Origin: Holophagaceae bacterium
GTDB taxonomy: Bacteria > Acidobacteriota > Holophagae > Holophagales > Holophagaceae
Assembly (NCBI GenBank): GCA_023257195.1
Contig: JALRCU010000009.1
Coordinates: 1 to 64,000, forward strand
Reading direction: 5' to 3'
Length of the DNA: 64,000 bases
Positions 23,237 through 32,381 of the stretch are shown here, one piece after another. How positions within the stretch are numbered: position 1 is the first letter of the stretch; each line of letters opens with the position of its first letter. Below the pieces are notes generated by a model. That model was given only the letters and a program-made list of their open reading frames with translations. It searched no databases and had not been told where the DNA came from. A program made the position numbers and the translations under genes.

Positions 23237-24322
23237 TTATCTGAGCTTAAGAGAACTAAGGCCCAAGAGGCAAAGTATTATTGCTACAATCCATAATCGA
23301 ATGACTACTTTAGTTTCGGGAAGTCCGCTTAATTCCATGTGGTGATGGAAAGGAGCCATCCGAAAGATTCGGCGACCCTTACGCAAACGAAAACTTCCTA
23401 CCTGGAGAATGACACTGAGGGATTCTAGGAAAAAAACTCCGCCAACAAGCAATATGATGATTTCTTGTTTTATAAGAATTGCCGCCGTTCCTAGGATAGC
23501 TCCCAAACTTAGGGAGCCAGTATCGCCCATAAATATCTCCGCAGGATGGGCGTTAAACCACAAGAAGCCAAGAGCCGCACCGGCAACTGCACCCATAACA
23601 ACAGTTAATTCAGATGCAGAAGCAACGTAAGGTACAGCAAGATAATTAGCTAATTTAATATTGCTGGATACATAAATCAAAATTGTGAAAGCAGATGCAG
23701 CAATAACAATCGTTCCAGCAGCAAGCCCGTCAAGGCCATCGGTCAAATTTACACCATTACTAGTACCAATGATCACAAGCATAATCCAAGGAACCATCCA
23801 TAAGCCGATATAAGGATGAAAATCTTTTAAAAATGGGAAAGCAATTGCGAGAGAAGATGGTCCCCTCTGGTCAAATTGAATAACCATAACGGCTATGATG
23901 AAGGAAAGGATCATCATAAGGAATATTTTTTGCCTACCTTTGAGACCAAGATTGTCTTTCTTTAATAGCTTTTTATAGTCATCGAGAAGACCTACCCCTC
24001 CAAATGTTACAAGGGCGAATAAACAAAGAAGTACAGATGCATTAGTCAAATCGACCCAAAGAATACAAGCGACCAGAATGGAAAAAATAATCAAAAGCCC
24101 CCCCATTGTTGGGGTACCTTGTTTATCCTGATGTGTTTTAGGCGCATCTCCTAAAATTGGCTGAGCAGCTTTAATTGATTTTAAAAAATAAATAAACTTT
24201 GTGCCAAGCAGTATGGAAACCAAGAGGGCAGTTACTCCCGCTAAAGCCGTTCGGAAGGTAATGTATTTGAGGACATTAATGCCCGCAATGTCTTGAAAAT
24301 GAAGAAGAAATCTTGCCAGCAT
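23237..24322 (-). CDS. mraY: Phospho-N-acetylmuramoyl-pentapeptide transferase
   Basis: MraY transfers phospho-MurNAc-pentapeptide to undecaprenyl phosphate, forming lipid I in the inner membrane. The ~361-residue protein has about ten hydrophobic segments, GTPTMGGLLII near residue 70, the aspartate-rich GGVGLLDDYKKL near 108, NLTDGLDGLAAG near 193, and the loop GDTGSLSLG near 264 with RIFRMAPFHHHMELSG near 320. The ATG at 24322 is preferred over a TTG one codon upstream. It lies between murF and murD with gaps under 10 nt. Confidence 0.97.
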   Translation of the reverse strand: MLARFLLHFQDIAGINVLKYITFRTALAGVTALLVSILLGTKFIYFLKSIKAAQPILGDAPKTHQDKQGTPTMGGLLIIFSILVACILWVDLTNASVLLCLFALVTFGGVGLLDDYKKLLKKDNLGLKGRQKIFLMMILSFIIAVMVIQFDQRGPSSLAIAFPFLKDFHPYIGLWMVPWIMLVIIGTSNGVNLTDGLDGLAAGTIVIAASAFTILIYVSSNIKLANYLAVPYVASASELTVVMGAVAGAALGFLWFNAHPAEIFMGDTGSLSLGAILGTAAILIKQEIIILLVGGVFFLESLSVILQVGSFRLRKGRRIFRMAPFHHHMELSGLPETKVVIRLWIVAIILCLLGLSSLKLR

Positions 24323-24331
24323 CAAACCAAC

Positions 24332-25705
24332 CTATGGAGACTTTATTGTATTTTGATTAGCGTTAAGAATCCACTCCACTGCTTGCTCGCACTTCCAATA
24401 TCGACTCCCTTTCACCAGAATGCGAGAACCAGCGGGTATGCTACCCAGACCATCTGCTCCATCTTTAAGATCTACAAACGAGGGGAAACTTTTTGAGCCT
24501 TTCCCGAATCCTTTAGATAAATAAGTGGCAAAGTCTCCATAACAAAGCAAACGATGAAAACCCAACGCCTTAAGGTGTGAGCCTACTGCTTCATGCTGCT
24601 GAACTGCAGATTGTCCTAGTTCGCGCATGGAGCCTAATACTGCAACCAATTCACCACCCGGCAGTCCTTTTAACCCAATGGCTGTTGCTATGATGGATTC
24701 GGGGCTAGCATTGTAGCTTTCATCAAGTAGAACACCTCCATGGGCTAGGTGGTGGATTTTCCCCCTACCCTCTTCTGGAGTGAGAGCAAAAGCTCCTGAG
24801 ATAGCTCGCTCTTCACTGAGACCCGACTCAAGGGCAATAGCTATTGCAAGCGCGGCGTTTATCACGTGGTGTTTGCCCTTTAATTGAATTTGTACTGAGA
24901 ATTCATGGTGAGGACCTCGATAAATAAAAGACTCACCCAAAAGTCCTTTAGATTCATGATTCAAGATCTGTCTTGAACTAGTCGGTCCGACAGGTAAAGC
25001 ACAACAATGCTGTGACCAAGGTTGCACTGCGATCCATTGGCAATTCGCATCCTCTTCCGGATAGACCCAAGCCCCACGATTCTTTATACCCTCAACTAAT
25101 TCTCCCTTAGCTCTTGCGATTCCCCTCAGGCCATCCGAGAAATTTTCTATGTGCGCGTGACCAATACCAGTTAGGATCCCAAAATCCAAGGGGGCAATTT
25201 CTGTAAGCCTCTTGATTTCTCCAGCAGTACTCATACCCATCTCCAAAACTGCGGTGTGAATATTTGAAGGAAAAAAGGCTAATGAAAGTGGTAGGCCAAT
25301 CGTATTATTGAAATTTCCCGGAGTCTTCCAGGCACTAACCATTATAGATAGAAATTCCTTTGTTGTAGTTTTACCTGCACTACCGGTCACACCAAATACT
25401 TGACCTGGACGAAAGATCTCGAATCTTCGCTGACCCCATGTTTGTAAAGCTTCAGTTGTATTTCTAACTTTTATTTGAGGAACTTTACAGTCGACCACAT
25501 TGTCTACGATCAGACAAGAGGCTCCTCTTTGAAGCGCTTCAGGAATAAAATCATGTCCATTTCTTTTGGCGCGCAGGGCAACAAAACATTCCTCTTGAAG
25601 AATCTCTTTCGAATTAAATGAAATCCCTTTAGGGATAATTGTCGGATCTCCGATAAGTTCACCACCTAGAATCTCTGTGATCTTACCGACATTCCAAAAA
25701 CTCAT
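24332..25705 (-). CDS. murF: UDP-N-acetylmuramoyl-tripeptide--D-alanyl-D-alanine ligase
   Basis: MurF adds D-Ala-D-Ala to complete the UDP-MurNAc pentapeptide. The protein (~457 residues) has the mur-ligase N domain with ISFNSKEILQEECFVAL, the ATP loop VFGVTGSAGKTTTKEFL near residue 104, NFNNTIGLPLSLAFF near 131, EMGMSTAGEI near 157, and LLDESYNASPESI near 324. I start at 25705 because its ATG overlaps the murE stop by 4 nt (ATGA); the longer frame to 25735 would overlap murE by 34 nt. It precedes mraY. Between murE and mraY is the usual place for murF. Confidence 0.96.
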   Translation of the reverse strand: MSFWNVGKITEILGGELIGDPTIIPKGISFNSKEILQEECFVALRAKRNGHDFIPEALQRGASCLIVDNVVDCKVPQIKVRNTTEALQTWGQRRFEIFRPGQVFGVTGSAGKTTTKEFLSIMVSAWKTPGNFNNTIGLPLSLAFFPSNIHTAVLEMGMSTAGEIKRLTEIAPLDFGILTGIGHAHIENFSDGLRGIARAKGELVEGIKNRGAWVYPEEDANCQWIAVQPWSQHCCALPVGPTSSRQILNHESKGLLGESFIYRGPHHEFSVQIQLKGKHHVINAALAIAIALESGLSEERAISGAFALTPEEGRGKIHHLAHGGVLLDESYNASPESIIATAIGLKGLPGGELVAVLGSMRELGQSAVQQHEAVGSHLKALGFHRLLCYGDFATYLSKGFGKGSKSFPSFVDLKDGADGLGSIPAGSRILVKGSRYWKCEQAVEWILNANQNTIKSP

Positions 25706-27168
25706 GATCTTTTCCCGAGATGATATTCCGCGCAATCTTTGTCATTGTAGGGATACTTTACACCTTTTATTTCTTGGTAATTTTCATGCCCCTTACCAGC
25801 TAATATAAGTAGATCTCCATGGCGAAGATCATTTATGGCAAATTCAACTGCCTGAGATCTATCAGGAATTCGGTGATAACTTGATGCATTATTTATTATT
25901 ACTGAACTAAGGCCTGCCGCAGCATCATCCAAAATGGACTCGATGTCTTCATCTCTGGGATTATCAGAGGTATGCCATATCACATCTGCATGGTTGGAAA
26001 CAATTCGAGCCATCTCCGATCGTTTTGTTTTGTCCCTGTTGCCTCCACAGCCAAATAGAACATGAAGTCTTGATCCACTGAGGATTAATTTTTTTCCTTC
26101 AGTACATATTTTTTCAAGAGCATCGGGGGTATGAGCATAATCGACAAGGACGCCAAAAGTTTGATTACTAGGGGTTTTGATTCTTTCAAATCTTCCCTTT
26201 GCCCCAACTAATCTATCTAGAACTGGTTGTAATCTACCAATCTCAAGACCAAGTTCTGAATAAATGGCTAGAGCAAAAGCTAAATTATATACATTAAACC
26301 TCCCGAGAAGAGGGCTTCTGAAAAAGTAGGAGCCTTTAGGGGTTCTAAAATGAAATTCGGTGTCTGTCGGAGATAAGCAAAGTCCCGAAATATGATAGTC
26401 AGCATTGCTATCCATGCCTAGCGTCAAGGCTGATCTTGAAGTTTTGAGCCTTCGAACATAAGGATCATCCACATTAATGATGAATTTATTTGATTGCTGC
26501 ATTAACTTAGCCTTCGAATTGAAGTAACTTTCCATATCCTTATGAAAGTCCAAATGGTCATGAGTTAAATTAGTGAAGGCTCCAACGGCAAATTGAGCTC
26601 CCTCTACCCTACTCATTTCAAGACCAATACTACTCACCTCGGTGGATACATAATGGTCCCCTGTGTCACAAGATTGTCTAAGAAATGAAAAGAAATCGGT
26701 ACTTTCAGGAGTAGTGCGAATCGAGTCCATGGAGACCCCGCCAACGATATTCTCCACAGTTCCAATAAGTCCGCATGAATATCCTGAAAGAGTGAGTAAC
26801 TGTTGGACGAGCGTTGTTGTAGTTGTTTTCCCATTGGTTCCAGTTACGCCTATTAATTTGAGAGATTGATCGGGACAAGAGTAGAAGCGTTTAGCTAATT
26901 GAGCCATGATTGACCTGAGGTTTTTTATAACCAGTAAAACTATTTCTGGAGGCACAGAAACCTCGTCTTCACTAATAACCCCAACGCAGCCCTTCTCAAT
27001 TGCTTGGGCTATAAATTGGTTTCCATTGAATGATTGGCCTTTGAGCGAAACAAATAAAAAGCCTTTGTTGACCTTACGCGAATCATGGGTAATGCCAAGA
27101 ATTGTTGGATCTAAAGTCTGCTTGGGGTTCTCGACGTGCAATCCCTTGACTAAATCAGATAATTTCAA
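25702..27168 (-). CDS. murE: UDP-N-acetylmuramoyl-tripeptide synthetase (meso-diaminopimelate-adding)
   Basis: MurE adds the third residue of the peptidoglycan stem. The 488-residue protein has the N-terminal substrate domain (LKGQSFNGNQFI), ATP loop GVTGTNGKTTTTTLVQ near residue 108, TTPESTDFFSFL near 152, NLTHDHLDFH near 208 with the carbamylated-lysine region, and the C-terminal GCGGNRDKTKRSEMA. HTSDNPRDED near residue 400 contains DNPR, the signature of meso-diaminopimelate ligases, so the wall is meso-DAP type. It overlaps ftsI by 4 nt and murF by 4 nt. Confidence 0.97.
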   Translation of the reverse strand: MKLSDLVKGLHVENPKQTLDPTILGITHDSRKVNKGFLFVSLKGQSFNGNQFIAQAIEKGCVGVISEDEVSVPPEIVLLVIKNLRSIMAQLAKRFYSCPDQSLKLIGVTGTNGKTTTTTLVQQLLTLSGYSCGLIGTVENIVGGVSMDSIRTTPESTDFFSFLRQSCDTGDHYVSTEVSSIGLEMSRVEGAQFAVGAFTNLTHDHLDFHKDMESYFNSKAKLMQQSNKFIINVDDPYVRRLKTSRSALTLGMDSNADYHISGLCLSPTDTEFHFRTPKGSYFFRSPLLGRFNVYNLAFALAIYSELGLEIGRLQPVLDRLVGAKGRFERIKTPSNQTFGVLVDYAHTPDALEKICTEGKKLILSGSRLHVLFGCGGNRDKTKRSEMARIVSNHADVIWHTSDNPRDEDIESILDDAAAGLSSVIINNASSYHRIPDRSQAVEFAINDLRHGDLLILAGKGHENYQEIKGVKYPYNDKDCAEYHLGKRS

Positions 27169-29264
27169 GGGTTCTCCGTTATCACCTTAACAATTTGCCC
27201 TTTCTCAAGATCAGTGAAAGGCTGAGGATCCTGAAATTGGACTCTGTGAATCGTGGTCTGTTTGTTCCCTAAAGATACTCTAGGGATACCCCCAGAAGCA
27301 ATAATGCGCTGGAGTGCAATCTTCAAACTAAGTCCTTTCAAATCTGGAACTTTGTTCAGGTCAGGAACCCATTCTTCGGGAGATGGATCGGGCCAGTTGC
27401 CTAGTTTTAAGGTGATAGGCAGATTATCGACTAGCGTATCAGTCGGCGTCTTTTTGTACCTAATAATGTTCTCAGCAATTTCTTTGAAAGCAGGAGCGGC
27501 AATATCTCCACCGTCGCCTCCGTTCTGAGCATCATCTAACATCACTAAAATTCCATATTGGGGCTTATCGGCAGGAAAAAAACCTAGATACGAAGCGTAC
27601 TGGTGACGACCATCACTGTACTTGCCATTAACTCTTTTATAAGAAGTCCCAGTTTTTCCAAATGAATCTACCCCATTCAATCTTGCTTTTTTTGCTGTAC
27701 CTACCGTGACAACATCTTTAAGAATATCTCTCATTAGGGCGCTTGTTTTCTCACTTATAACCCTCTCTTTTTCTTCGGGCGAAAATTTTTTAACGATACT
27801 TCCATCCTCGGCGTATATATTTTTAACCAACATTGGTCTCATCAATATGCCTCCATTGGCAACAGCGCTGCCCGCCATCAATACATGCAAAGGTGATGTC
27901 AATAAAGCATAGCCATAGGTCAAGGTGTACTGAGTGCTTCCACTCCATTCTTCTACGGGTAAAAGCGGTGTTCTGATTTCACCCGCTACTCCTAATCCGG
28001 AGGGTTTTCCAAACCCAAATTTATCAAGATAGGAGTAAAAGTCCTGTTTTGGCAATCTCATACCGATTTTAGCAGTACCGATATTAGAACTTTTTGCCAA
28101 GATTTCATTCACCTTCAGAAACCCGTTTTTTCCGTGGTCCCTGATGATCTGACCAAAAGGGGTCGTATAGGGACCCTTACAATCAATAGACTCATCCAGA
28201 CTAACAAGTCCTTCTTCAAGAGCCATGGCTATTGTTAGAACCTTCATTGTTGAACCAGGTTCATAACCGTCTGTGACAGCATGAAATTTCCTAGATTCTA
28301 GTGCTTCTTCAAGAGTTTTAGTGGACTTTGATACGCTAAGATTAGGATCAAAAGTTGGGTAACTAGCTGCCGCTAAGATCTCTCCTGTATTTGGATTAAC
28401 GACTATGGCATAGGCGCTTTTAGGTCTCGCTTTTGTTACAGCAGTAGCAAGAGCTTCTTCAGCATATCGTTGGATTGTTGAATCGAGAGTTAGCTCAAGA
28501 TTGAAGCCCGCAATGGGCTCTTTGGTAACCCTATTATTATCGACCATGAATCGCTTCTTTCCATCAACATAAACATTTCTTTCTCCGTTTTGTCCTTTAA
28601 TCACATCATTATAGATTTGCTCAATTCCTAGCTTGCCTTCTCCATCGAGATCTGTGTAACCCACTACTTGCGCTGCATACGAGCCTTTGGGGTAGGAACG
28701 AACAAATACTTTTTCAAGGGTAAGTCCAAAGCGACTAATATCCCTAGATTCTACCTGTCGAGTAATCTCGGGGCTCAAGGGTCGGGCTATGTATATGAAT
28801 GGTTTTTTTGTGAGAAGTTTATTTTCAATTCGGCTTGCCTCTATATCGATCAAGGGAGATAAAAGATTTGCTACATACTTTGCTGCAGATCGATCGGGCT
28901 CCCCCCAGATAACACTCTTCCCTGTTTTTTTGTACTGTGGGTAAAAAAAGATAGGTCGAGCTGCCAAAGAAGAAGTCTCAATGGATTCAGCCAGAGAAAA
29001 ACCATTACGATCGATAATCTTGCCACGTTTTGCAATGATCGGTTGTGTTGCGATTTGTTGATTTTTAGCCAATCGACTCAAGTCGCTATGCATAAAAATC
29101 TGAAGTTGAGCAAGCCTACAGATAACAAGTAGAATCCAACCGTATAGAATCGCTTTTATGATTCTTAAACGAGGAGAATGTGATTGATTTTCTGATTGAA
29201 ATCCAGAGAAATTACGCTTAATGCCATCCAGTATTCTTAGAAGATTATGGATGTAATCTTTCAT
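27165..29264 (-). CDS. ftsI: Septal peptidoglycan transpeptidase, PBP class B with C-terminal PASTA domain
   Basis: FtsI cross-links septal peptidoglycan. The 699-residue protein has an N-terminal membrane anchor (~residues 37-55), the PBP dimer domain, and a transpeptidase domain with GYEPGSTMK (active-site serine near residue 336), KSSNIGTAK (SxN) and FGKTGTSYKR (KTG near 535). A PASTA-like domain closes the protein (VPDLKGLSLKIALQR, residues ~635-695), a feature of several non-proteobacterial FtsI proteins. It lies between ftsL and murE. No stalk cysteine or lipobox is seen. It would work with the distant FtsW. Confidence 0.96.
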   Translation of the reverse strand: MKDYIHNLLRILDGIKRNFSGFQSENQSHSPRLRIIKAILYGWILLVICRLAQLQIFMHSDLSRLAKNQQIATQPIIAKRGKIIDRNGFSLAESIETSSLAARPIFFYPQYKKTGKSVIWGEPDRSAAKYVANLLSPLIDIEASRIENKLLTKKPFIYIARPLSPEITRQVESRDISRFGLTLEKVFVRSYPKGSYAAQVVGYTDLDGEGKLGIEQIYNDVIKGQNGERNVYVDGKKRFMVDNNRVTKEPIAGFNLELTLDSTIQRYAEEALATAVTKARPKSAYAIVVNPNTGEILAAASYPTFDPNLSVSKSTKTLEEALESRKFHAVTDGYEPGSTMKVLTIAMALEEGLVSLDESIDCKGPYTTPFGQIIRDHGKNGFLKVNEILAKSSNIGTAKIGMRLPKQDFYSYLDKFGFGKPSGLGVAGEIRTPLLPVEEWSGSTQYTLTYGYALLTSPLHVLMAGSAVANGGILMRPMLVKNIYAEDGSIVKKFSPEEKERVISEKTSALMRDILKDVVTVGTAKKARLNGVDSFGKTGTSYKRVNGKYSDGRHQYASYLGFFPADKPQYGILVMLDDAQNGGDGGDIAAPAFKEIAENIIRYKKTPTDTLVDNLPITLKLGNWPDPSPEEWVPDLNKVPDLKGLSLKIALQRIIASGGIPRVSLGNKQTTIHRVQFQDPQPFTDLEKGQIVKVITENP

Positions 29265-29298
29265 TATTATGCACCATAGTAGAAGATAAAAGTATTTC

Positions 29299-29673
29299 TT
29301 ACTGTTGTATTTGAATTACTGAATTGACGGATATGTTTTTATTTATTTTGGCCATACTTTGATCTTCGGAATTAAACACTCGTGGGATCATGATGATATC
29401 TTGACCACTTTTGCCAAAGATCATTCTTCTATTTCTGGCGAATTCCTCTATTTGTTGGTCTAGGGGAAACCTGCTTTGACTGATCCTTAGGGAGCTTTTA
29501 ATTTCCTCTTCTTTTTGAATTTCTGACTGGATTTTAGAGGTCATAATACTTACCTTAATGGCCTCTACATTAATGATAAGCATTACTAGCCATGGGCAAA
29601 GAATGGCCAAGATAAGCGATAAAACTCTAACTATACTGATGGAACCATGCAGATTTCTAGCAGATGTTGACAT
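29299..29673 (-). CDS. ftsL: FtsL-like cell division protein
   Basis: The 124-residue protein has a short cytoplasmic N-terminus, one transmembrane helix (residues ~15-37, rich in LILAILCPWLVMLIINV) and a periplasmic coiled-coil-like stretch of charged residues (KIQSEIQKEEEIKSSLRIS). This topology is that of FtsL, which joins FtsB/DivIC in the divisome. FtsL is too variable for sequence identification; the assignment comes from topology and its position between rsmH and ftsI. The gap to rsmH is 9 nt and to ftsI 34 nt. Confidence 0.78.
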   Translation of the reverse strand: MSTSARNLHGSISIVRVLSLILAILCPWLVMLIINVEAIKVSIMTSKIQSEIQKEEEIKSSLRISQSRFPLDQQIEEFARNRRMIFGKSGQDIIMIPRVFNSEDQSMAKINKNISVNSVIQIQQ

Positions 29674-29682
29674 AAGGGGTCC

Positions 29683-30645
29683 TTATAACTTAGAGATCAC
29701 TCTTAATCGAGCAGATCTCGATGATGGGTTAGATTCAATTTCGGATACTTCTGGGACAACTCCATTGGGAGTTAGAATTTCAGCTTCTTTAATAAGTTTT
29801 GTTGGTGAAAGGCGCCCTGGTCCATCATAGATACCCGCCATTTTTCTAAAGGTATGCTTCACTATGCGATCTTCAAGGCTGTGGAAAGATATGACCCCCA
29901 TTCGGCCCAAAGGTGCCAAATTTTTAAATGCATTTTGTAGGGTATAGTTCAATCGATCGAGTTCGCCATTCACCGCAATCCGAATAGCTTGAAAGGTTTT
30001 AGTCGCTGGATTCGAATGCCCTTTACGCTTAGCTATCTCAAGAGGTAAAACTTGGTAGACGGCTCTTGCTAGGTCTAGAGTGGTTTGCAATTGACCCAAC
30101 TCAAGCATTTTCAATATAGATCGAGCTATAGGCCTGGAGGCGCGCTCTTCTCCGTAGATCCAAAGAGCATAAGCTAATGTTGATTCGTCTTGGCGCTGAA
30201 TCCACTCCAGGGCAGTTAGCCCATTTTTATTATCCATTCTCATGTCCAAGGGGCCTTCTTTTGAAAAACTAAACCCTCTCTCTGCTTTTTTAAGTTGATA
30301 AGTAGAAACTCCTAGGTCAGCAAGAATAGATTCGAAACCTATCGGTGCAAAGCTGGCCTTAGCCTGTTCGAACGTCTCGTTACCCCACACATCATCATGA
30401 TTACTATTTAAAATTGAGATGCGTGGATCGCTTTCGAACCGCGCTTTGCAGAATTCAATCGCTTCTGGATCCCGGTCGATTCCAATGTATCTGAAGGACG
30501 GTGGTTTATCTTTCAGAATAATTTCTGCATGACCACCAAAGCCTAGGGTCATATCTAAAAAGTTTGATTCGCAATTTTGGCCCAAGAATGTATCAACTTC
30601 TTTTGATAAAACGGGGACATGCATGGGAACTGTAAGGGTCATCAT
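29683..30645 (-). CDS. rsmH: 16S rRNA m4C1402 methyltransferase
   Basis: RsmH (MraW) methylates N4 of C1402 in the 16S rRNA P site using SAM. The 320-residue protein has MHVPVLSKEVDTFL at the start, NFLDMTLGFGGHAEIIL near residue 27 (SAM loop), IGIDRDPEAIEF near 54, ADLGVSTYQLKKAERGFSF near 110, GPLDMRMD and ATKTFQAIRIAVNGEL near 215, and GVISFHSLEDRIVKHTF near 250. Two ATG codons are in frame; GGGAGG lies 4 nt before the first (30645) and 7 nt before the second (30642), favouring either. mraZ stops at the adjacent base. Confidence 0.97.
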   Translation of the reverse strand: MMTLTVPMHVPVLSKEVDTFLGQNCESNFLDMTLGFGGHAEIILKDKPPSFRYIGIDRDPEAIEFCKARFESDPRISILNSNHDDVWGNETFEQAKASFAPIGFESILADLGVSTYQLKKAERGFSFSKEGPLDMRMDNKNGLTALEWIQRQDESTLAYALWIYGEERASRPIARSILKMLELGQLQTTLDLARAVYQVLPLEIAKRKGHSNPATKTFQAIRIAVNGELDRLNYTLQNAFKNLAPLGRMGVISFHSLEDRIVKHTFRKMAGIYDGPGRLSPTKLIKEAEILTPNGVVPEVSEIESNPSSRSARLRVISKL

Positions 30646-31125
30646 TTAGCCTCCCAGCCTTGATAGGGTCATAAGATCTTCGGAAGTCACCGGATCTTTG
30701 GAGGATAACTCTTGATATGAGGCAGTATTCCATAGAGCTAAGTGATCGATCATTCCTAAAATAGATATTTCTCCGGCAAGCCTAGCCTGCTCTCTTAATT
30801 TTTGCGGAATTACGATACGTCCTTGATTATCTGGAGTAATCTCGGAGCCATGAAAAGATAAACTGTGAAGCATTTTTCGTTTTCCTGGATGCATAAACGG
30901 AAGATTGACTAATGCTTTCTCGTGTTGTTCCCAAATCGATAGAGGGAAAAGAACTAGAGAATTTCCTAAATCGAGTGAAGTGAGATAAAAATTAATGACA
31001 TCAATCTTTTTTGGTTTGTCCTTACTTGTAAGTGGTTTTTCAAGCGCCGATCTGAAGATCGAGGGAAGCTTTAATCTTCCCTTCTCATCTACGGTCGCTG
31101 GCGAGTTTCCCCGGAGTGTTAACAT
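30646..31125 (-). CDS. mraZ: Transcriptional regulator MraZ
   Basis: MraZ is the first gene of the division and cell-wall cluster and represses its own promoter. The 159-residue protein has two AbrB-like repeats: VDEKGRLKLPSIFRS near residues 12-26 and ITPDNQGRIVIPQKLREQA near 97-115, each with the DxxGR signature. It is a little longer than usual (~143-150), with a loop insertion around residues 30-45. Its predicted operator, five TGG repeats at 10-bp steps, lies just upstream at 31158-31204. The tight spacing to rsmH puts the whole mraZ-murD group on one transcript. Confidence 0.95.
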   Translation of the reverse strand: MLTLRGNSPATVDEKGRLKLPSIFRSALEKPLTSKDKPKKIDVINFYLTSLDLGNSLVLFPLSIWEQHEKALVNLPFMHPGKRKMLHSLSFHGSEITPDNQGRIVIPQKLREQARLAGEISILGMIDHLALWNTASYQELSSKDPVTSEDLMTLSRLGG

Positions 31126-31149
31126 CGAATGATTGTCCTTTTTGTAAAA

Positions 31150-31155
31150 ATCATA
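31150..31155 (-). promoter_or_regulatory. -10 box of the mraZ (dcw) promoter
   Basis: On the minus strand TATGAT lies at 31155-31150, about 25 nt before the mraZ ATG. The MraZ repeat block begins 4 bases upstream and would cover the spacer and -35, consistent with repression. No convincing -35 hexamer is visible. Confidence 0.5.
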
Positions 31156-31157
31156 AA

Positions 31158-31204
31158 AACCACTTTAAGCCATTTATAGCCAAAAAAAGCCACTTCATTC
31201 CACT
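31158..31204 (-). promoter_or_regulatory. MraZ operator: five TGG repeats at 10-bp spacing
   Basis: On the + strand CCA occurs at 31160, 31170, 31180, 31190 and 31200, exactly 10 bp apart; on the mraZ coding strand these are TGG steps, most preceded by AAG or AAA. Known MraZ boxes are tandem TGGG or AAAGTG repeats at 10-bp steps, usually three or four copies. Here there are five, immediately upstream of the mraZ -10. The block also sits between mraZ and the divergent histidine kinase, so it may control both. Confidence 0.82.
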
Positions 31205-31208
31205 TAGT

Positions 31209-32381
31209 ATGGAAAAGACTAGAAATCTTACAAGGGAGAAAATAAACGAAATTCTCAAAGAAACCCTCATTGAAATAGCGTTTAACATCAAATTTGAGGC
31301 TTTGCCATCCCATACTATACATAGTCAACAAGGCAGAATCATGTTCAACAAGGGTTCTAAAGAACATCAAGATTCACCGATCCCTCTGGGACAGATCATC
31401 GAAGAACTAAAAGAGGGGGTTGTTGTATTTAATAACGAGCCCGCATTGTCCCAAATTCAAGTGGTATTTTACAATACGGCAGCTCATAGAATACTTGGCG
31501 AAGATAGTGTCCTTAGCTTCAAGGCACCGCTTCCCCTAGTGTTCAGGGAACCTGAGTGTATGAAATGGATAAAGTCGGGGTTAGCCGACGAGTACACACT
31601 TGAGCGTAAATATATAGTTTTATCTCTAAGAAGAAAATTGATTGAATATCTAAATGTAACTTATATTCTGATTACTTTTGAAGATATTACACGCCGAGTT
31701 CGTCTGGAAGAAACACGTCAGAAGTTTATCTCCAATATGAGTCATGAACTTCGAACCCCGATTACCTCCATGTCTATAGCTCTAGAGAACCTTCAAGAAG
31801 GAGGAAGTGATCTGTTTAATCAAAATATAGGAATACTTAAGAGATCGGTTAATAGAATGCAGCAACTAATAGAAGATTTAGCCGATTTATCGACTATAGA
31901 GAATATGGCCAATCTGAAAAAAGAAGATTTACTTGATTTCAATGAATTTACTTCTGAGATTCTTTTTGAATTTAAAAGCAGAACTTCGGAGCGTGGAATC
32001 ACTTTGGTTTCAGAAATAGATTCTCAATTAGAAAATATTGATATTAGAACAAACAAACTGCGTCTTTATCAAATGATACACAATCTTATCTCTAATGCTT
32101 TTAAATATGCCGATCCTAAATCCAAGGTACGTCTTAGTTTCAGTCTGGTTTCAGATCGCATGGTTATACAGGTTCAAGATGAAGGGCCCGGAATCGCAAT
32201 TATGGAACAAGAAAAGATTTTTGAAAGATTCTATCGAACTTCTTCTGCAAGAGGCATACCTGGAACCGGCCTTGGGCTGTCCATTGTAAAACAACTTGCG
32301 AATAAATTGGGGGGGGCTATTAGTTTGAAAAGCGAATTAGGAGAGGGTTCTACGTTCACTTTATCGCTCCCATTGAATTAA
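31209..32381 (+). CDS. PhoR-like sensor histidine kinase with PAS domain
   Basis: Residues ~60-155 form a PAS-like sensor (IIEELKEGVVVFNNEP, FYNTAAHRILGEDS, ITFEDITRRVRLEETR). A dimerisation domain follows with SNMSHELRTPITSMS (phospho-acceptor His179), then the ATPase domain with NLISNAFKYADP (N box), DEGPGIA (G1) and GTGLGLSIVKQL (G2). No membrane segments or signal peptide are seen, so it is probably cytosolic. No response regulator lies nearby. I start at 31209 because a longer frame from 31116 would run through the MraZ operator and into mraZ; the 31209 start has no SD, so 31341 is also possible. The 3' end overlaps the HIT gene by 4 nt. Confidence 0.85.
   Translation: MEKTRNLTREKINEILKETLIEIAFNIKFEALPSHTIHSQQGRIMFNKGSKEHQDSPIPLGQIIEELKEGVVVFNNEPALSQIQVVFYNTAAHRILGEDSVLSFKAPLPLVFREPECMKWIKSGLADEYTLERKYIVLSLRRKLIEYLNVTYILITFEDITRRVRLEETRQKFISNMSHELRTPITSMSIALENLQEGGSDLFNQNIGILKRSVNRMQQLIEDLADLSTIENMANLKKEDLLDFNEFTSEILFEFKSRTSERGITLVSEIDSQLENIDIRTNKLRLYQMIHNLISNAFKYADPKSKVRLSFSLVSDRMVIQVQDEGPGIAIMEQEKIFERFYRTSSARGIPGTGLGLSIVKQLANKLGGAISLKSELGEGSTFTLSLPLN

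Follow-up and report, generated by a model that had tools for sequence, protein, structure and literature searches.

A five-box array upstream of mraZ in a Holophagaceae bacterium is very probably an MraZ operator and represents the family norm

A run of five short repeats separates mraZ, the first gene of the dcw cluster, from a divergent histidine kinase gene in a 64,000-nt stretch of a Holophagaceae genome (hereafter the window), and raises the question of whether these repeats are an operator for MraZ and which of the two genes they would serve. CCA starts on the + strand at 31160, 31170, 31180, 31190 and 31200, which gives five TGG on the mraZ strand, and no further CCA occurs at any other place within 31001-31300. 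The units are tandem direct repeats running in the direction of mraZ, 5/5 at exactly the 10-bp step, and lie 35-77 bp upstream of the gene (Table 1). On the mraZ strand boxes 1 to 5 read AAGTGG, AATGAAGTGG, CTTTTTTTGG, CTATAAATGG and CTTAAAGTGG. A GTG core is found in three of the five, with one ATG and one TTG, and is absent from box 3 (TTTTGG) and box 4 (AAATGG). The letters between the boxes vary from unit to unit, TGG being the invariant part, and the inter-box DNA in this genome is A/T-rich, with an A before many of the TGG cores. The window has a GC content of 43.1% and belongs to a genome of 1,195,406 bases in 56 contigs that is 96.97% complete. Holophagaceae is a family of Acidobacteriota, and the available text of the same source describes UBA12189 ('Acidiparvus') as a streamlined genus with genomes of 1.12-1.37 Mb, GC of 44.3-48.7% and few two-component systems (PMC11561045).

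Table 1. Features of the mraZ region in the window
Feature	Position	Strand	Basis
Array of five putative MraZ boxes, TGG cores, exact 10-bp steps	31160..31202	-	Sequence and family conservation
Predicted mraZ -10 element, CATACT, immediately before box 1	31206..31211	-	Position equivalent to family TANACT; identical in congener G002
Predicted -35 of the mraZ promoter, TTGTAA, 16-bp spacer	31228..31233	-	Family TTG/-10 pair
Predicted mraZ transcription start, inside box 1	31197..31201	-	Placed ~7 bp from the predicted -10
mraZ, 159 aa, two MraZ domains	30646..31125	-	Pfam PF02381, 68.2 bits, two stretches
mraW/rsmH, next dcw gene after mraZ	29683..30645	-	Pfam PF01795
Further dcw-like ORFs, presumed regulated operon	23237..29673	-	ORF list
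Divergent histidine kinase, probable revised start, 346 aa	31341..32381	+	HisKA, HATPase_c (on the longer frame from 31209); start by congener comparison

The array directly precedes mraZ at the head of the cluster (PF02381 with PF01795 adjacent), as expected of an operator for these genes. Judged by their translations, the ORFs that follow mraW resemble ftsL, ftsI, murE, murF and mraY in the usual order. Searching the genome for MraZ returned one place, the mraZ of the window. To assess how readily such an array arises by chance, we ran 300 first-order Markov simulations of the window, in which five TGG/CCA at 10-bp steps never appeared (0/300) and four appeared twice (2/300). The positions and exact spacing of the five CCA described in the sequence-only reading of this DNA are confirmed. 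No second 3-mer in the 64,000-nt window is repeated five times with this exact 10-bp spacing, and the array is the sole place in the whole genome with at least four exact TGG at this step. When one mismatch was allowed the genome gave three other places, as did the reversed-pattern control (also three). A second strong MraZ target in the genome was considered and rejected, the scan for at least four exact boxes returning only the array.

We then asked whether the array is kept in relatives, a point on which the sequence-only reading had made itself depend. The repeat is kept: in family loci fetched by an MraZ profile with the repeat ignored, five boxes stand in register in 33/33, and all five cores are exact in 30 of them. 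The other three carry one changed core each (L007, AGG at box 3; L028, CGG at box 2; L029, AGG at box 4), and AGG also replaces the box 3 core in congener G002. This unselected set was drawn from 36 family genomes with an MraZ match (G011, G016 and G023 were left out; G001 gave no match in the MraZ profile search of family genomes). Another 23 loci had been fetched because of their match to the pattern; with these added, the 56 family loci all have five boxes, 53 of them exact. Seven duplicate loci were dropped before counting. In a pattern scan of genomes, five boxes with at most one mismatch were found in 75/77 family genomes, a count in which the one-mismatch hits include chance ones, and GC-rich family members had chance matches elsewhere too, as in the reversed-pattern control. 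All 48 high-quality family genomes (completeness of 90% or more, contamination of 5% or less) match the five-box pattern; the two family genomes that did not match reach 84% and 58% completeness. That the array is a chance occurrence, or a slipped tandem repeat without function, is therefore a reading already refuted by conservation throughout the family, and we consider it vanishingly improbable. The A/T-rich surroundings are all that speaks for it, whereas the simulations speak against it and the letters between boxes differ by unit, which is unexpected from recent slippage.

Across the phylum, at least three exact TGG at a step of 10 were found in 128 of 160 mraZ upstream regions, and at steps of 8, 9, 11 and 12 in 1, 0, 0 and 0 of the 160. 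Exact box numbers in the other classes of the phylum (90 loci) were three in 49, four in 13, five in one and fewer than three in 27; allowing one degenerate box, five were reached in 4/90. Within the family's own class, the two remaining families have three exact boxes in 9/14 loci and five in none, and outside the family as a whole 32/104 loci have fewer than three exact boxes. Five boxes are the family norm, and three are the usual number elsewhere in the phylum. The profile searches also yielded two side observations on the regulator gene itself. Three genomes (G112:C51, G148:C137 and G143:C10) have four MraZ-domain matches each; in G112 and G148 these fall in two adjacent frames of a single contig, a pattern suggestive of tandem mraZ paralogues. 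Among the genomes examined, none of the 6 from g50 and none of the 3 from g83 gave an MraZ match, so these genera may have lost the regulator.

The position of the boxes relative to the promoter bears directly on how they might act. The sequence-only reading had laid them over the spacer and -35 region of the mraZ promoter. This is probably wrong, as the family shares a conserved promoter on the upstream side of box 1. The unit TTGTAA-N16-CATACT (31233-31206, minus strand) is identical in the window and congener G002, between which the array and promoter are conserved while most other intergenic DNA has diverged. When the 54 family loci outside the window's own genus were aligned on box 1, they showed a common TCGTTTTTnTTT-like tract with TTG at -34 and TAnACT at -12; in the own genus the TTGTAA-N16-CATACT unit sits three bases nearer the array than the other family promoters. 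A TTG/-10 pair with 15-18 bp between is found in 56/56 family loci using a permissive pattern, at the identical place in 48. CATACT is a weak match to the -10 consensus. A reading with the boxes over the -35 and spacer was rejected, since TATGAT downstream of the array on the minus strand is not conserved in G002, in which TTGTAA-N16-CATACT is kept. Because the conserved promoter stands upstream of box 1, the boxes would cover approximately +1 to +43 rather than the spacer and -35. Judged by promoter prediction and conservation, then, they lie downstream of the -10 and overlap the predicted mraZ transcription start, with a predicted leader of ~74 nt. In the rest of the phylum TTGAC or TTGCA occurs at -45 to -28 from box 1 in 53 of the 63 loci with at least three boxes; in these 53 the boxes are downstream of the -10, in 2 they overlap TTGAC/TTGCA, and 8 have neither. 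The two sister families within the class show a separate arrangement: unlike in the window's family, the boxes overlap the -35 element in 9/9 loci with at least three boxes (L089, L090, L092, L095-L100).

This arrangement also bears on whether the 10-bp steps of TGG are incidental to phased A-tracts that curve the DNA or to an UP-like promoter element. The A/T-rich DNA between the boxes and the A before many TGG cores would fit such an element, but it is TGG that is invariant while the letters between vary, the array lies downstream and not upstream of the -35, and the 10-bp TGG step holds in loci of very different composition. We regard this explanation as very unlikely.

The array had further been described as lying just before the divergent kinase gene and as possibly coupling the two genes. 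ORF calling offered ATG 31209 as the kinase start, a codon that falls inside the predicted -10. In congener G002 the matching frame is closed upstream of the residue equivalent to ATG 31341 of the window, and homology begins there. As no open frame precedes this residue in G002, ATG 31209 is probably not the kinase start; both it and GTG 31116 were rejected, the shared protein beginning at 31341. The probable start of the kinase is thus 31341, at a distance of 138 bp from the array rather than directly beside it. A homologous divergent kinase adjoins mraZ in 11 of the 47 family loci whose upstream DNA reaches 700 bp or more (9 with less were set aside). These 11 belong to genera g1 (2/2), g6 (3/4), g9 (2/2) and g11 (4/4); no adjacent kinase was found in g4 (0/29), g8 (0/3) or g3, g7 and g10 (0/1 each), together 0/35. 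The array is not tied to the kinase, being kept in genera with and without it. Since it is kept in all loci although the kinase is adjacent in only 11/47, coupling is unlikely, and that part of the sequence-only reading is probably wrong. A shared bidirectional operator, at which box-bound MraZ would repress or activate the kinase as well as mraZ, draws on the divergent arrangement in those 11 loci of g1, g6, g9 and g11. We nevertheless find it improbable given the same array where the kinase is not adjacent (g3, g4, g7, g8, g10), the distance of the likely kinase start, and the failure of the congener alignment in the stretch that separates the mraZ promoter from the kinase. Three HisKA places and four response-regulator places above cut-off are present in the genome, and no response-regulator match was found on the window's contig. 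The kinase appears to begin directly at its sensor part, while homologues in other genera have, by eye, a hydrophobic N-terminal stretch.

MraZ is a ring-forming protein with AbrB-like domains. It is reported to act as a repressor in E. coli (Eraso 2014, as cited in later papers). The E. coli operator (L286, at mraZ1p/Pmra) shows in its sequence a TAAACT-like -10 and, after it, three TGGG that are oriented like mraZ and spaced at a step of 10 bp, the first 43 bp before the gene. The two operators are alike in their TGG cores, their 10-bp steps and their start just after the -10. They differ in that E. coli has three exact TGGG and, in the available passages of PMC5089854, a 38-nt leader, while the window has five TGG and the longer predicted leader. 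The accessible text on B. cenocepacia PmraBc describes four 7-nt repeats with 3-nt spacers in an MraZ-bound (EMSA-positive) fragment; these lie after the -10, 'as in E. coli', and extend over the start site (PMC7761207). On that description the window shares the 7-nt plus 3-nt unit, the place downstream of the -10 and, by prediction, the overlap with the start site; it differs in having five repeats, against four in PmraBc, where binding is shown. The MraZ site of Mollicutes, which PMC5282649 and PMC8475190 give as (AAAGTGKN3)3 and place ahead of mraZ within the dcw promoter region, resembles the window array in its 10-bp step, GTG core and place upstream of mraZ. As described there it has three repeats with K after GTG, whereas in the window GTG is found in 3/5 boxes.

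Mollicutes also supply another candidate for the protein that uses the array, a repeat-binding regulator of the HsdC kind. HsdC is described, in the available text of PMC5282649, as binding direct repeats with a central TG over the -10 and start site, but with a repeat spacing 1 nt off that of MraZ, and the MraZ site is said there not to be bound by HsdC. The window step is exactly 10 and steps of 9 and 11 were found in 0/160 phylum regions, so the spacing of an HsdC-like site is not seen, and the array accompanies mraZ across the phylum. We judge such a regulator to be highly improbable here. Five in-register boxes are kept in 33/33 unselected family loci, and in the window they stand before a two-domain mraZ followed by mraW. 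We favor MraZ itself: by position, step, box sequence and conservation, the array is very probably an autoregulatory operator of mraZ and the dcw genes behind it, as the sequence-only reading had proposed.

The same reading had treated five copies as unusual. In addition to the family norm described above, arrays of five to seven boxes are found in other phyla. A search of public species genomes for five RTGG at a step of 10 bp gave at least 118 stretches, a sample and not a census. Among the matches listed, 40 of 118 stretches have the array at most 300 bp upstream of mraZ and in its direction (five boxes in 26 of these, six in 12 and seven in 2); in 70 of the 118 listed no MraZ was found in the DNA examined around the array. 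Titles of listed five-to-seven-box arrays include Nocardioides, Mediterraneibacter, Lachnospiraceae, Acidimicrobiaceae and Opitutales. These arrays are like that of the window in core, step and place directly upstream of mraZ, and differ in spacer letters and distance to mraZ. Since they occur before mraZ in other phyla, five boxes are a recurring state and not peculiar to the window's genome. Two further features of the sample stand apart from the window. Exact TGG at 10-bp steps number seven in L170 and L209 and six in L173, L179, L180, L199 and others, exceeding the three or four boxes of the published descriptions, as far as their available text goes. In 8 of the 118 listed stretches (L176, L191, L196, L198, L201, L222, L224 and L236) a five-box array stands 90-220 bp before mraZ but in reverse orientation, so that the mraZ strand carries CCA. 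Most are titled Alphaproteobacteria or orders thereof (L224 is Nitrosomonas sp. and L236 Proteobacteria), and TTGAC lies inside the array in 7/8. Relative to the promoter, the operator of these loci appears inverted.

As to how an operator of this kind would work, autorepression is the most likely mode. MraZ would occupy the five TGG boxes along a single face of the double helix, at intervals of one turn. Because these begin right after the predicted -10 and would cover approximately +1 to +43, the bound protein would impede formation of the open complex or escape from the promoter, and expression of mraZ and the genes downstream of it would be kept low. The available text on M. genitalium reports that other genes of the cell-division cluster rise on deletion of mraZ (PMC8475190). 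The GTG core missing from boxes 3 and 4, together with AGG at box 3 of G002, suggests that not every box need be occupied. The size of the MraZ ring is inferred, as is a possible change in the strength of repression when there are five boxes in place of three. MraZ chains are present in the PDB (e.g. 9qlr, 9sx6, 9qlg, 1n0e), and our literature search found neither a paper on an MraZ-DNA structure nor a survey of box numbers. We tentatively raise the idea, itself rather doubtful, that each lineage has its own fixed number of boxes, which selection maintains to suit the number of MraZ ring subunits that engage DNA. If true, box number would set the strength of repression or the shape of the wrapped complex.

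The switch is a known one, self-repression of the division cluster; the window array adds another instance of it, in which five copies are nothing unusual and the placement of the boxes relative to the promoter is now corrected. The fixed box number per lineage and the inverted arrays in Alphaproteobacteria are more interesting than the window array itself, and the natural operators of three to seven boxes could be used for linking box number, MraZ ring size and repression. For the organism, the finding means that the self-repression switch of the division cluster would be intact and well kept in a genome-reduced lineage.
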